DNA from: a virus
Reading direction: 5' to 3' (one strand)
Length of the DNA stretch: 21,237 nucleotides
Virus record (IMG/VR): IMGVR_UViG_3300032116_001527
Location: 1 to 21,237 of that record
Part shown: positions 3,008 to 19,102 of the stretch, in pieces
Position numbering within the stretch: position 1 is the stretch's first letter
Layout of the letters: each line of letters starts with the position of its first letter
Notes under the pieces: generated by a model
What the model was told of the DNA's origin: nothing
What the model saw: only the letters and a program-made list of their open reading frames with translations
Databases searched by the model: none
Program-made: the position numbers and the translations under genes

Positions 3008-3626
3008 AGTGTTTGATCCTATCTTCAAGCCCAATGAAACCGCCATTAATCCGGCGCGTCAGTTCTTTTATGTCGCCCGCGTCGGCCCACTTATTTAATC
3101 CATTTTTCTCCCAAAACCAGCAAGCGCTCTGACTTGCCCCTTCGAACGTGGCCAAATAGTCAGGCACGTCGTTTATGGCCATTTCCAAGCTGTCAGCAAA
3201 AGCTTGATAGTTGTCTCGTCCAGTAAGCTGAATAAGCCCACGACCGCGAAACCGATAGCCGTCACCAGAAGACTCATCGCCATTCCCCATACGGTTAGCG
3301 TAAATACGGTTGGCAATAGCCTCCTGCTTGTTAGGTTTCGCGCAATACTGTCCAGCAATAACATCATCGGTGAAATACTTCGAAAAAAGGCGCCGAAGCG
3401 CTTGGGGTTTGTAATTTAGGTTTTCTTGAAGCACAGAAAACCCACCAGATTCATGAGCACATTGCGCAATAAACGCCGCGATTCGTTTTGGGGTATTGAT
3501 ATCGTAGTCGTCTAGCAGCGTGCTGCCGCCAAGCTCGGTCTGAGGCATGGCCAGCGCAGTGTGCCAGTGCTCGACGTACTTATTCTTGGGGAGTAGTTGG
3601 CGTAATTGGCTCAGTGTCAGGCTCAT
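2976..3626 (-). CDS. Endolysin, glycoside hydrolase family 19 (216 aa)
   Basis: The protein shows family 19 (chitinase-like lysozyme) landmarks in order: CAHESGGF at residues 56-63 with the expected catalytic Glu59, QENLNY at 67-72 with Glu68 as the likely second acid, FRGRGLIQLTGRDNY at 126-140, and RRINGG at 191-196. Phage members of this family cut the glycan strands of peptidoglycan, releasing progeny. At 216 residues it is a single catalytic domain with normal length. No signal peptide is seen, so it needs a holin; a candidate lies downstream. AAGGA lies about seven bases before the ATG. The start overlaps the preceding membrane-protein gene by 47 bases. Confidence 0.92.
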   Translation of the reverse strand: MSLTLSQLRQLLPKNKYVEHWHTALAMPQTELGGSTLLDDYDINTPKRIAAFIAQCAHESGGFSVLQENLNYKPQALRRLFSKYFTDDVIAGQYCAKPNKQEAIANRIYANRMGNGDESSGDGYRFRGRGLIQLTGRDNYQAFADSLEMAINDVPDYLATFEGASQSACWFWEKNGLNKWADAGDIKELTRRINGGFIGLEDRIKHYEHALHILAG

Positions 3627-3918
3627 AAAGTTTCCTTAACTCCATTACATATCTACGGCGCGTCTCACGCATACGCTTTAACTCTTCAACGGCTGCGGCA
3701 GTAGCGTTATTCATATCCATGTAAGCCATACCTAGCATCGGTATAGCAAACACAAATGTCAGCGCCATTACTGCCAGACATATGACGATAACGATTGATA
3801 CGTCTGACTTTTCCTTATCATTACCATTAGCGCCCACATCCAAACTTGGACGAACAGGATCGCGCCAATCCAAGTTGCCAGCGCCTTTGCCTTGTTTATT
3901 GTTCTTGCCCGTTGCCAT
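3580..3918 (-). CDS. Single-pass membrane protein, unknown function (112 aa)
   Basis: The layout is a basic, glycine- and asparagine-rich N terminus (residues 1-40), one strong membrane segment (about 42-66, VSIVIVICLAVMALTFVFAIP), and a charged helical region (about 73-98, EELKRMRETRRRYVMELRK) with coiled-coil character. No ribosome binding site is obvious before the ATG at 3918, and the first 151 bases overlap the end of the preceding gene in another frame. Similar small membrane proteins occur at this place, between structural and lysis genes, in other phages. It could assist holin or spanin function, but I cannot name it. Reality is supported by the clean hydrophobic segment and ordered charge pattern. 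Confidence 0.6.
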   Translation of the reverse strand: MATGKNNKQGKGAGNLDWRDPVRPSLDVGANGNDKEKSDVSIVIVICLAVMALTFVFAIPMLGMAYMDMNNATAAAVEELKRMRETRRRYVMELRKLYEPDTEPITPTTPQE

Positions 3919-4460
3919 GCCGCTATTTGAGCTTTCCGCAATTCTTCAGCACGAGCAATTTCTTGCTCTTCATTGATCTGCTTCCACATAGCCTCAAATT
4001 TGCTCCACAATGACCCCAGCTCGGGCGGAGCGTTGTACACCATTTCTTCGCGGATACTAGCCAGCATAGAATCTAGTCTGGATCGTATCAATACGCGCCG
4101 AAGCGCTCGCCTTCCTATACTCTCATCACCCTTATAGACCTTCTTGGCTTCCATCTCTTCTTTCAGGAACAGTTTAATGATCGCGTCATACGCGTCCATG
4201 AACTTTCCTAACTGCTCGCCAATGTCTGTAAACGCATCCCCAGGATCAGTTTTAGCAATCGTCTGGACGCGCTGGACTTCTTCGTTGTACTGTCGTTTCT
4301 CTTCGTTAGATGGGTTGGGTTTAGCAGCAAACTGCTTTTTCAGATCGTCAAGTACATCCTTGACGTCCCCAGCCGCATTCTTAATATCCTTGTAAAGCTT
4401 ACACCCGGCTTTCGCCGCCGCAATGGCTGTATTCGCGGCGGCAATAAGCGCGAATGGCAT
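3768..4460 (-). CDS. Helical protein with C-terminal membrane segment, probably virion-associated (230 aa)
   Basis: The start MPFALIAAANTAIAAAKAGCKLYKD is Ala-rich and mildly hydrophobic. A long charged, mostly helical middle follows (residues 30-185), and a membrane segment lies near the C terminus (about 195-217, ATWIGAILFVQVWMWALMVM). GAGGAG precedes the ATG, which sits just after the stop of the 755-residue protein. I do not recognise a family with certainty. Its position after large structural genes and its membrane segment suggest a minor virion or DNA-entry protein; a lysis-related role is the alternative. Its last 151 bases encode the next gene in a second frame. Confidence 0.6.
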   Translation of the reverse strand: MPFALIAAANTAIAAAKAGCKLYKDIKNAAGDVKDVLDDLKKQFAAKPNPSNEEKRQYNEEVQRVQTIAKTDPGDAFTDIGEQLGKFMDAYDAIIKLFLKEEMEAKKVYKGDESIGRRALRRVLIRSRLDSMLASIREEMVYNAPPELGSLWSKFEAMWKQINEEQEIARAEELRKAQIAAWQRARTINKAKALATWIGAILFVQVWMWALMVMIRKSQTYQSLSSYVWQ

Positions 4461-13841: not shown

Positions 13842-15404
13842 TTAGGCCGGAACAGCCAGAGCAAAAGCCGACGACGAAGTAGCAGCACCGACGGTAGCAG
13901 CAGTACGCATGGCCTTCACACCATAGATCATATCTGCGGTGTAAAGAGTTGCCAGGTATTCCTGCTTGTACTGGGTCTGCGAACGAACGCCCATCTGCTC
14001 AACCAGCACCATCGCGTCGCGGTGGCCCATCAGGCAGATACGGTCAGCGCCGGTGTTACCTGCGCCGTAGTCGGCGTTGGAGGTAACGAACACGGGGATG
14101 CCGTACAGGTTGCCGATTTCGCCGTTGCGGATCGCGTTGCCATTGCCGACGAATGCCTGCTCGGTGTAGCGAGCCAGACCCATCAGGGTGTTACGCGACG
14201 ACGGAGGGATGATGAAGAAACGACCGTCCATTGGAGTGTCGTTGTCATCCAGACGCTGGATCGTGCGGCGGATTGCAGCGTCGGTCAGTGCAGCAGCGTT
14301 CGAAGTCGAGCTGTTGTAGGCCGTGGTGCCATCCGAGCCGATGTAGGCTTTGGTCGATGCAGCCGAGGTAGCGTAGTCGTTGGTGCCAATCGTTGCGCCG
14401 TTGAATGCGCGGCCCAGCTGAATCAGGTCGGTGTCGACCTGCTTGGCCAGAGCGTAACCAGCGTCGTCAGTGTAGAACTGACGCAGCGAGGTCAGCGCCT
14501 GCGTTTCAACGATGTCTTCGATCAAACGGCTGTACTCGTAGTGCTTGTCGATCGAGATTTGCACTTCGTTCTCGGTTGCAGCGATCAGGGTAACAGCGTT
14601 GGTTGCGCCTTTTGCCGAGGCGGAGCCACGGGTTGGAGACGGAACGTGAACGGTGTCACCTTTCTTGCCACGGAAGTTCATCTTCATGACCAGATTGGCC
14701 AGAACGAGGTTCTTCTTGTACGACGCAACAATTTCATCCGACCAAATTTCCCACCAGCTAAAAAGCTGGCCCGACTATCGCATCACAGAATGGCTATAAG
14801 CCGTTCCTGTGCCTTCTCACTTAGTCTGTGCGGGTCACGCTTCATTGCTTTAAGCTCATCCCGGATAAACTCTCTTGCCTCGCTGGCGATCTGTTTACCC
14901 TTTACTGTTGTCTCCAAGGACAACAGAAATTTGGCCTGTTCTTGTTTGATATATAGGTGGTTAGCAAAATTACGCAAGAAAGGGCAGACTAAACTATATC
15001 CGCACAACTCCCATGACGTTGAACTTTGCCAGCTGCTATTTGTGCTCGGGCGGGGAATTAGAGCTCCGCCGTGATTCGCGTGCAGTATGTCTAGGATAAA
15101 TTTGCAGTTATCCGCCAAGCATATTCGTAGCCTTGGCCTAACATAAATACCGCGAGTTACTTGCACATCCAGACAGCCTTCGCCGTCAACCAAACCTGCA
15201 ATGTACTTCCAACTTAGCCGCTTCATACGCCTCCTTGGCGTGAACTGCGATGTTGTTCAATCGTGTTCCCTCTGGTCACAACACCCGAAGTTTGCTCCCA
15301 GTTTTTCAGAGAAGGTTTTACATCCCCAAAATTTATAGGCTAGGGATAAAGGTTGCTGCTGTAGTGGTCGTTACACTATTTGCTGGGCTAAATGCGGTTG
15401 CCAT
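13842..15404 (-). CDS. Major capsid protein, T7 gp10-like, split by a group I intron (323 aa after splicing)
   Basis: The gene is join(15404..15342, 14750..13842) on the - strand. Exon 1 starts at the ATG at 15404 behind TAGGAG and encodes residues 1-21 (MATAFSPANSVTTTTAATFI, then P). Exon 2 begins EIWSDEIVASYKKNLVLANL and continues through the HVPSPTRGSAS block to the stop at 13842. The joined FIPEIWSDEIV is the usual N-terminal phrase of this capsid family, and the total of 323 residues is normal for T7-like capsid proteins. Unspliced mRNA would stop after two further codons (Ser-Leu-TAA). The scaffold gene lies just upstream. A start at the internal Met 14687 would lose a conserved N-terminal segment and is not credible. 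The splice junction is inferred from pairing and frame, not from RNA. Confidence 0.9.
14751..15341 (-). ncRNA. Group I self-splicing intron in the major capsid gene (591 nt)
   Basis: Pairings I can see on the - strand: P1, the exon end UAUCCCU with GGGGAUG (15327-15321), with U.G at the splice site; P10, exon 2 GAAAUUU with AAAUUUU (15334-15328), seven pairs; P3, CCUUCUC (15315-15309) with GAGAAGG (14818-14812); P4, CUGG (15301-15298) with CCAG (15275-15272); P6, GGG (15270-15268) with CCC (14834-14832), extended by UCACGC (15243-15238) with GCGUGA (14840-14835); P7, GACUA (14826-14822) with UAGUC (14777-14773); P8, CACAG (14811-14807) with CUGUG (14788-14784), plus an inner stem; P9, CCAGCU with AGCUGG (14769-14754). 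The order is the canonical one. CAGACUA and GAUAGUC match the R and S elements. The last intron base is G. P5 is not resolved. The intron carries a homing endonuclease gene. Confidence 0.93.
14783..15226 (-). CDS. LAGLIDADG homing endonuclease, intron-encoded (147 aa)
   Basis: Residues 8-19 (YIAGLVDGEGCLDV) are a clear LAGLIDADG motif; Glu16 takes the place of the usual catalytic acid. One motif in 147 residues predicts a homodimer that cuts a pseudo-palindromic target, namely the intronless capsid gene around the FIP|EIW codons, so that repair copies the intron in. The ATG has AAGGAGG only three bases upstream, right beside a P6-extension strand (15243-15238), so folding of the ribozyme could limit translation (inference). 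The last 15 codons and the stop also form P7, P3 and P8. The frame is intact, so it may be active; a maturase function is possible but not shown. Confidence 0.9.
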   Translation of the reverse strand: MKRLSWKYIAGLVDGEGCLDVQVTRGIYVRPRLRICLADNCKFILDILHANHGGALIPRPSTNSSWQSSTSWELCGYSLVCPFLRNFANHLYIKQEQAKFLLSLETTVKGKQIASEAREFIRDELKAMKRDPHRLSEKAQERLIAIL

Positions 15405-17053: not shown

Positions 17054-19102
17054 TTATTGCAAAGCAAACGCCGCAGTTGGAGCAGTAAAGTTAGCTGTGT
17101 ATCTGGCGTATCCTTTAGTGATACGCAAATCGTCTATATATCCGTTTAAATAAGCGTTTGGTGATGAGTCATCATCTACACCAACGCATACTCTAGCAGG
17201 TGTTGTGTAAGTATTTGCGTCAGTGTAAGTACTACCAGACTGCGTTCCATTTATAAAAAGCTTTGTACTTGAGCCAGATTTTGAAACGGCTATATGCGTC
17301 CATGTTCCAGTGGATAACGTAGATCCAGTAATTCTGTTTACGCCAGATGTTTGGAAAAATACTGCGCCTCCAGCAGAGTTGCCAACAGTAGGCCCAACTG
17401 CTCCAGAACCACTTCTGAAATCTACGTGTATGGATTCAGCAGATACAGAAACCGGATTAACCCAATATTCAATAGTCCAATTTCCTGTTCCTAAACCATT
17501 AACAACGTTGCTTTGCGTTAAAAGATAATCGCCCGTCCCATCAAAGTACATCGAGCTACCGCCCCACTTACTCTGCGTTGTGCTGATCTGCGCATTGCCA
17601 ACAGTCTCCAGCACGTTCTTGGCAGTAGCGTCAGTGATGCCAGCGTTGGTGAAGTTGCATAGCAGTGAAGTGTTGGTTATGGCTGTAGGCGGCGCTGTAG
17701 GAATAGTAATTGTAGAGTTTGCAGCGTTATATCCACCACTTCCCTTTATTAAACGTGCGCCAGAAATATATCCAGTCAGCCGATTGATGTTGTTACCAGC
17801 AGCGCCTATTGTTGGTGGGTAGGTTGTTGATCCATTATTTACAGAACTTGTGCCTAAATCCGTTCTTGTTCCAACTCGAACACCATTTAAATAACTAGAG
17901 AAAGTTCCTCCAGTACGAACAAATGCTACATGCGCCCATTCGTTCAACGTCGGGTTAGGTGATGTAATTCCGTAGCTAGTGCTACCGCTATACAAATCAG
18001 ATGTAGCCGCTGTCGTAGTAGCGTAAAAAATGTAGCTGCTACCAGCCGCAGTTGCTGCATCGCCTTGCCCAAAAAATATGTTTGCAGCGCCAGTTGTTTG
18101 CTTATATACCCATGCCTCAAAAGTAAAGTCGCTGTTACCAAGTAAAAGAGGGGTTTGCCCCGTAGGAAGCGATAGATAATCTCCCGTCCCATCCAAATAC
18201 CCACTACCACCTACTGTCGTAGTGCTATAAGCATCAGTAGGAGCAAACGGGCTGAAGGCTTGGACGGATGGAGTTCCGGTGATAGTCAGGGTTTTGGGGC
18301 TGCTGCTGTTATCAACAAACCTGTTTGACTGGCAAGTCAATAGATAAGTTTGTGTTCCAGTCGGCGGGTTTTGACCTCCTGAAGTTGCACCTAATGGAAC
18401 AGTTGGAGGAGTGAAGTTACTTGTATAAACTGCTGCCCCAATAGCTAAACGAGCGTTTGAAATATAGCCGTTAAAACCCCCGCTTGTACCGCTATCCCTA
18501 CCTAAATATAAGAAAGCAGTTCCAGAACCTATAGTTGCGCTTGAGCTATACGTAGATACGTCAGCGACACCATTAATATAAATTTTTGCTACACCAGAAG
18601 AACGAACTAAAGCTATATGCGTCCATGTATTTAACGAAACTGTGGACGTAGTATTTATTCTATTTCCAGCTCCTGTGTAATAAGTAATTCCATTATTTAG
18701 ATTTACCCATAATTCAAATTCAGAAGCATTTAAAGAAAATATAACTCCTATATTTGGTAATGAAGTTAAATAAATCCACGCTTCTGCTGTGTAGTCTCCA
18801 GTGATTGATGGCACTGTTGATGGTGTTGTTATGTAATTTGATTGACCCGAGGAAAAATAATTACTCCATCCTGTCTGACTAAACGGAGTGAACGTACCCT
18901 GCGTCGTGTTACCGTTGCGGGTAATAGTGAAGTTGTTGCTGCTTGAATCTAAGAACGTATTGTTCTGCGCTCCATTTGTACCATTACCGGGCAACAAAAG
19001 AGTTGTAAGATTGAAATAAGCATCAACAGCCGCAGCAATAGCAGACCGAGTAAATCCATAAGCTCTAGCTGATGCCGCACCAATTGTCGAAAGCAATCCC
19101 AT
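17054..19102 (-). CDS. Tail fibre/adhesin with three LamG (concanavalin A-like) domains (682 aa)
   Basis: The head MGLLSTIGAASARAYGFTRS is a short hydrophobic segment that probably anchors the protein in the virion. Three LamG-like modules follow at about residues 78-233, 300-455 and 515-670. Each has the same landmarks: an EAWIY/EAWVY/EYWVN strand, a TWTHIALVR/EWAHVAFVR/TWTHIAVSK strand, an INGV/LNGV/INGT turn, and GYISNARL/GYISGARL/GYIDDLRI near the end. Such jelly-roll domains bind carbohydrates, so the protein probably recognises host surface glycans. It follows a tail-fibre gene closely. An AAGG ribosome binding site lies just before the ATG. The domain call is sure; receptor binding is inferred. 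Confidence 0.85.
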   Translation of the reverse strand: MGLLSTIGAASARAYGFTRSAIAAAVDAYFNLTTLLLPGNGTNGAQNNTFLDSSSNNFTITRNGNTTQGTFTPFSQTGWSNYFSSGQSNYITTPSTVPSITGDYTAEAWIYLTSLPNIGVIFSLNASEFELWVNLNNGITYYTGAGNRINTTSTVSLNTWTHIALVRSSGVAKIYINGVADVSTYSSSATIGSGTAFLYLGRDSGTSGGFNGYISNARLAIGAAVYTSNFTPPTVPLGATSGGQNPPTGTQTYLLTCQSNRFVDNSSSPKTLTITGTPSVQAFSPFAPTDAYSTTTVGGSGYLDGTGDYLSLPTGQTPLLLGNSDFTFEAWVYKQTTGAANIFFGQGDAATAAGSSYIFYATTTAATSDLYSGSTSYGITSPNPTLNEWAHVAFVRTGGTFSSYLNGVRVGTRTDLGTSSVNNGSTTYPPTIGAAGNNINRLTGYISGARLIKGSGGYNAANSTITIPTAPPTAITNTSLLCNFTNAGITDATAKNVLETVGNAQISTTQSKWGGSSMYFDGTGDYLLTQSNVVNGLGTGNWTIEYWVNPVSVSAESIHVDFRSGSGAVGPTVGNSAGGAVFFQTSGVNRITGSTLSTGTWTHIAVSKSGSSTKLFINGTQSGSTYTDANTYTTPARVCVGVDDDSSPNAYLNGYIDDLRITKGYARYTANFTAPTAAFALQ

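Follow-up and report, generated by a model that had tools for sequence, protein, structure and literature searches.

A probably mobile group I intron, with a LAGLIDADG reading frame overlapping its ribozyme core, in the major capsid gene of uncultured phages

Group I introns in phage capsid genes have been described before. In mycobacteriophage LittleE (JF937101), splicing of a capsid-gene intron was shown by RT-PCR and N-terminal sequencing (PMC3706429), and the same paper cites a capsid-gene group I intron of Tuc2009. In crAss-like phages, major capsid genes contain one or several group I introns, one gene being in five pieces (PMC7886860). In the T4 td intron, which encodes I-TevI, and in others, an open reading frame (ORF) reaching into the core and a hairpin at its ribosome-binding site are known (PMC3073962). 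The published capsid-gene introns correct the novelty hinted at in the initial annotation of the locus reported here, according to which few or none were known in this position of a podovirus capsid gene. Like the LittleE locus, this one has a phage major capsid gene that is split by a group I intron with a LAGLIDADG ORF. However, the LittleE ORF is encoded on the other strand and lies clear of the core, the capsid is that of an HK97-like siphovirus interrupted at another site, and the two ORF products are only 22% identical over 73 amino acids (aa). The crAss-like group I introns likewise split major capsid genes, in different phages (PMC7886860). What is new is therefore not the kind of intron but the family and the site that it occupies, and no report on this family was found in open-licence papers.

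The window, i.e. the whole stretch of DNA analysed, comprises 21,237 bases and corresponds to a single virus record in IMG/VR. Its capsid gene (15404..13842, minus strand, as are all features of the window below) is split between codons 21 and 22. Exon 1 (15404..15342; 63 nt, 21 codons, MATAFSPANSVTTTTAATFIP) is followed by an insertion of 591 nt ending in G (15341..14751), and by exon 2 (14750..13842; 909 nt including the stop codon, 302 codons), which matches Pfam Phage_capsid_2 and the major head protein family phrog_267. The positions, lengths, and phases of both exons and of the insertion had all been given correctly in the initial annotation, as had the CCT|GAA junction that restores FIPEIWSDEIV. 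Scanning viral contigs with exon 2 identified 80 near relatives, approximately 75 of which have a readable N terminus. With the exception of the same phage, these relatives, which are 79-91% identical, read TFIP EIWSDE without interruption and are free of the insertion. Intronless alleles, proposed earlier as a check, thus exist in about 75 close relatives. The same insertion, its ORF 100% identical, occurs in four further contigs of IMG/VR, which shows that it is not an artefact of a single assembly. In a contig with the identical intron (L085:3477-4242), exon 2 matches as two overlapping pieces, which suggests a deletion, a frameshift, or an assembly error.

The affiliation originally proposed for this phage, T7-like, found no support. 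The best cultured relatives of the capsid protein are cyanopodoviruses, only 27-33% identical; two of the cyanopodoviruses, A-4L and Pf-WMP3, are assigned to the Saffermanviridae. None of 13 related contigs of 30-44 kb has a detectable T7-type single-subunit RNA polymerase, a search in which the control was likewise silent, and eight of the 13 encode a DNA polymerase A. Elsewhere in the window, a protein of 682 aa (17054-19102), encoded upstream of the scaffold gene, contains repeated modules that match many phage tail and baseplate families.

When the window was searched with Rfam, there was no group I match at the gathering cut-off or at E ≤ 10. Because the absence of a covariance-model hit was the first refutation named in the initial annotation, this outcome formally speaks against the intron. 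A match to this model is, however, a means of detection and does not define group I introns. The Rfam group I model misses the entire intron family, probably because the core is interrupted by the ORF, which sets P6 apart from P7. As controls for RF00028, the introns of LittleE, Pf-WMP3, and T4 nrdD scored 30.7, 31.9, and 105 bits, respectively, two of them below the model's own cut-off. A family covariance model made from 14 diverse ORF-less cores, with the window excluded, matches the window twice (15347-15204, E = 1.1e-14, and 14956-14745, E = 4.6e-13), and the outer ends of both matches coincide with the predicted splice-site pairings. Among known introns, this model matches that of LittleE weakly (a rough E of 0.0045), where Rfam places it, and that of Pf-WMP3 with an E of only 0.048, and it does not match that of T4 nrdD.

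The fold that we propose can be followed along the transcript. The internal guide begins with its P10 part (AAAUUUU, 15334-15328), which pairs with exon 2, and continues with its P1 part (GGGGAU, 15327-15322), which pairs with AUCCCU, the six terminal bases of exon 1 (15347-15342), with a U.G pair at the splice site. The 5' strand of P3 (CCUUCUC, 15315-15309) is followed by P4 (15301-15298/15275-15272) and P5 (15295-15292/15281-15278), both defined on an alignment of 39 introns, and by the 5' strand of P6/P6a (GGGaaCACG, 15270-15262), whose partner bases lie within the ORF. Immediately 5' of the ORF start, a covarying hairpin (15241-15227) contains the Shine-Dalgarno sequence AAGGAGG. Just 5' of this hairpin, CGCAGUUC (15249-15242) is near-invariant across the family and lies outside the assigned pairs. 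Covariation places P6a' (14839-14836), P6' (14834-14832), the 5' strand of P7 (14826-14822), P3' (14818-14812), and P8 (14811-14807/14788-14784) within the ORF. These are followed by the 3' strand of P7 (UAGUC, 14777-14773) and, on the same alignment, the P9 hairpin (14770-14765/14758-14753). P4-P6 and the location of P6', P7, P3', and P8 inside the ORF had gone unmentioned in the initial annotation.

This fold was tested on the 39 aligned homologous introns, using 52 pairs from P1, P3, P4, P5, P6, P6a, the hairpin, P7, P8, P9, and P10. Bases are paired in 95.4% of 1969 cells, and 36 of the 52 pairs show double-sided changes. The covariation score is 0.501 versus 0.141 after shuffling, none of 500 shuffles reaches any of the measures, and sliding the partners reduces pairing to 37-44%. 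P3 and P7 are 100% paired with compensatory changes in the 39 sequences. All seven P3 pairs form in every sequence and six are compensated; in P7, the 3' strand is paired in 39/39 and an A-U pair is replaced by G-C in four sequences. The order P3-P4-P5-P6-P7-P3'-P8-P7' is present. P8 is undercounted in eight sequences whose ORF is extended at its C terminus, because there the aligner misplaced the 3' strand. RNAalifold run without the window returns the same helices, but no P7 pseudoknot and another P6. Its choice (GAAC/GUUC) was rejected; it is GGG..CACG/CGUG..CCC that covaries. P6a also covaries with the ORF codon preceding Asp131.

The pairings at the splice sites vary with the host gene. 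The U.G pair at the 5' splice site is found in all 39 introns, P10 is 95% paired, and the mapped introns terminate in G. P1 follows the terminal codons of exon 1 (AUCCCU/GGGGAU, AUUCCU/GGGAAU, GUCCCU/GGGGAC, ACGCCU/GGGCGU, UUGCCU/GGGCAA, and AUACCU/GGGUAU), and the first pair of P10 changes from G.U to C-G where a C opens exon 2 (L141, L143). Beyond its first four pairs, P10 is particular to the window sequence. Each element that had been drawn in the initial annotation (P1 with its U.G pair, a seven-pair P10, P3, P7, P8, P9, and the terminal G) is present, and covariation backs all of them except the length of P10. Together, the 39-homologue covariation and the family covariance model strongly support the reading of the capsid-gene insertion as a group I intron. 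Translational bypassing elements occur in phages, and the ribozyme is not recognised by Rfam, so we considered whether a non-intronic insertion (a free-standing endonuclease gene, a programmed frameshift or translational bypass, or an intein) might split or inactivate the gene. Since every diagnostic group I helix covaries, including a P1 that tracks host codons, we regard this as extremely improbable. An intein is excluded by in-frame stop codons, found within codon 4 in 45/45 distinct 5' parts.

Loop L6 of this intron is filled by an ORF of 147 aa (15226..14783) with one LAGLIDADG motif (YIAGLVDGEGC), which had been overlooked initially, as had the mobility of the intron. A profile of 34 homologues compared with the PDB matches an engineered protein best (9e-15), then I-MsoI (3e-14), and also I-CvuI and I-CreI. 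The predicted structure of the ORF product (pLDDT 95) matches I-CvuI/I-CreI at 1e-8 to 1e-7. With Pfam LAGLIDADG_1 the window protein scores 16.1 bits, below the curated cut-off of 23.1, but this cut-off is a threshold on scores and does not define such enzymes. At E ≤ 0.1, each of the 34 family members is matched (the best at 2.7e-9), and every one retains the motif and its acidic residue. The PHROGs label "HNH endonuclease" (phrog_5046) was rejected, as the motif, the Pfam profile, and the fold indicate LAGLIDADG instead. The enzyme is predicted to be an I-CreI-like homodimer. It shares a single-motif LAGLIDADG fold with I-CreI/I-CvuI, but these are ∼20% identical to it and are encoded by introns in organellar rRNA genes. 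In seven relatives (L122, L123, L125, L126, L136, L150, and L151), the C terminus of the ORF carries a Cys-rich, zinc-finger-like tail inside P8.

The ORF overlaps the ribozyme by 57 nt (14839..14783), corresponding to P6a', P6', P7, P3', and P8. Its C-terminal codons double as P6', P7, P3', and P8, and protein and ribozyme are therefore jointly constrained. This constraint can be seen in synonymous codon usage as well as in covariation. At conserved residues outside the overlap, codon entropy is typically ∼1.0 bits for 2-fold, 1.8 bits for 4-fold, and 2.2 bits for 6-fold amino acids. The values within it are 0.19 for Asp131, 0.21 for Pro132, 0.97 for Arg134, 0.52 for Leu135, and 0.77 for Ser136. 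The initial codons of the ORF are likewise somewhat frozen, perhaps reflecting translation initiation. In the T4 td intron, too, the P6 loop holds the ORF, the 3' end of which makes P6a and P7, and a hairpin surrounds the ribosome-binding site, but the enzyme is of the GIY-YIG type, the overlap is 20 nt, and the host gene encodes thymidylate synthase (PMC3073962). A LAGLIDADG ORF overlapping P6/P7/P3/P8 (and P9) is listed for the LSU rRNA intron of Synechococcus lividus (PMC3073962, Table 1), which differs by its bacterial rRNA gene, the placement of the ORF in P8, and an overlap of 81 nt. The coupling of ORF and ribozyme over 57 nt could also be taken to mean that the product no longer works as an endonuclease and chiefly serves as a maturase, helping its own ribozyme to fold, while the intron is now for the most part passed on with the phage genome. 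Maturases of the LAGLIDADG type do exist, one example being a Thermotoga protein cited in PMC3984707. We consider this unlikely, considering that the motif and its acidic residue are retained in all members, that introns were transferred recently relative to their flanks, and that ORFs are more alike than capsids in 350 of 406 pairs. Maturase and endonuclease activities are in any case compatible rather than exclusive.

Relatives of the ORF were found at 72 viral loci (35-100% identity). The family is present in ∼70 uncultured phage contigs, mostly in the capsid gene and at one and the same codon boundary, although capsid identity falls to ∼20%. In the ∼65 contigs in which splice sites were mapped, exons join in-frame as [FY]xP|[EQ], U ends exon 1, and G ends the intron. 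No other six residues of the capsid are as conserved as FIPEIW/IPEIWS (ranks 1-2 among 318 stretches of this length), in which P and E are invariant. Because the site encodes these residues, the intron can move among very divergent phages. In bacterial genomes, the nine pattern matches all appeared to be due to chance.

The histories of introns and flanks disagree. L104 and L088 have 98.5% identical introns, but exon 2 and the upstream flank are ∼80% identical, which indicates that the intron is mobile. Conversely, L104 and L095 are 98.2% identical in exon 2 and 93.1% in the intron, and L095 and L091 have identical introns with exon 2 at 90.5%. Introns have thus been transferred horizontally relative to their flanks. 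An old and mostly vertical intron, lost many times in intronless relatives rather than gained by repeated homing, would agree with the use of one site throughout and with the correlation between intron and capsid distances (Spearman 0.59). It would not readily explain intron alleles that cross flanks in L104/L088/L095, or capsids at 31% identity with ORFs at 64-65%. In the capsid tree, the window and L086 are placed separately amid intronless capsids, the gain count being meaningful for the window's clade only, as intronless rows were drawn solely from its neighbourhood. We therefore find vertical descent quite unlikely. The excess of ORF over capsid identity and the mismatch of alleles and flanks are what homing would predict.

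Taken together, these findings make it very probable that the locus is a mobile, endonuclease-bearing group I intron in a capsid gene, homing to the FIP/EIW site, with a ribozyme dual-coded with its enzyme. The transcript would fold into P1 and P3-P9, and two transesterifications, directed by the 13-nt guide abutting both exons, would remove the intron and restore the capsid mRNA. The phage would then depend on this splicing. The Shine-Dalgarno hairpin in L6 would allow translation of the 147-aa enzyme, which is expected to cleave intronless capsid genes at FIP/EIW, repair copying the intron in. In the window, an in-frame UAA (15335-15333) lies three codons past the 5' splice site. A stop codon in the capsid frame occurs within four codons of this site in 45/45 distinct 5' parts, at the third codon in 40; an early-stop pattern of this kind is absent from both other frames. 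Stop codon and hairpin may shield the core from ribosomes. A tentative extension, to which we give a low probability, is a translation-coupled switch of capsid splicing: ribosomes completing the ORF would unwind P6', P7, P3', and P8, so that enzyme synthesis and splicing would exclude each other on a given transcript, with timing set by the ribosome-binding-site hairpin and the conserved third-codon stop.

Each of these features has a precedent. The family offers ∼70 natural alleles in which a ribozyme and its encoded enzyme co-evolve codon by codon, making the "core creep" idea testable. It is a mobile intron aimed at the most conserved spot of the capsid gene, crossing very distant phages, and belongs to a class that Rfam's standard model of group I introns did not detect. 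Capsid genes of this type will be listed as truncated by gene callers and in surveys of phage marker genes.

Further insertions occur near this site. In L192 and L176, the family's intron lies ∼6 nt further downstream (FIPEV|WS in L192), and in L176 another insertion, whose LAGLIDADG ORF has two motifs, follows almost immediately, leaving a micro-exon in between. In L101 (about 3512-4422), L135 (from about 3563), L143, L150, and L157/L218/L221, the capsid gene is interrupted again after a few codons by insertions that contain LAGLIDADG or other ORFs. The family's RNA model also matches the second of the two introns in L101. In L114 (3564-3834, plus strand), a second, ORF-less group I intron, recognised by Rfam RF00028 with 81.4 bits, lies ∼28 codons beyond the first one in the capsid gene. 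The N-terminal segment of the capsid gene looks like a multi-site intron hot spot.
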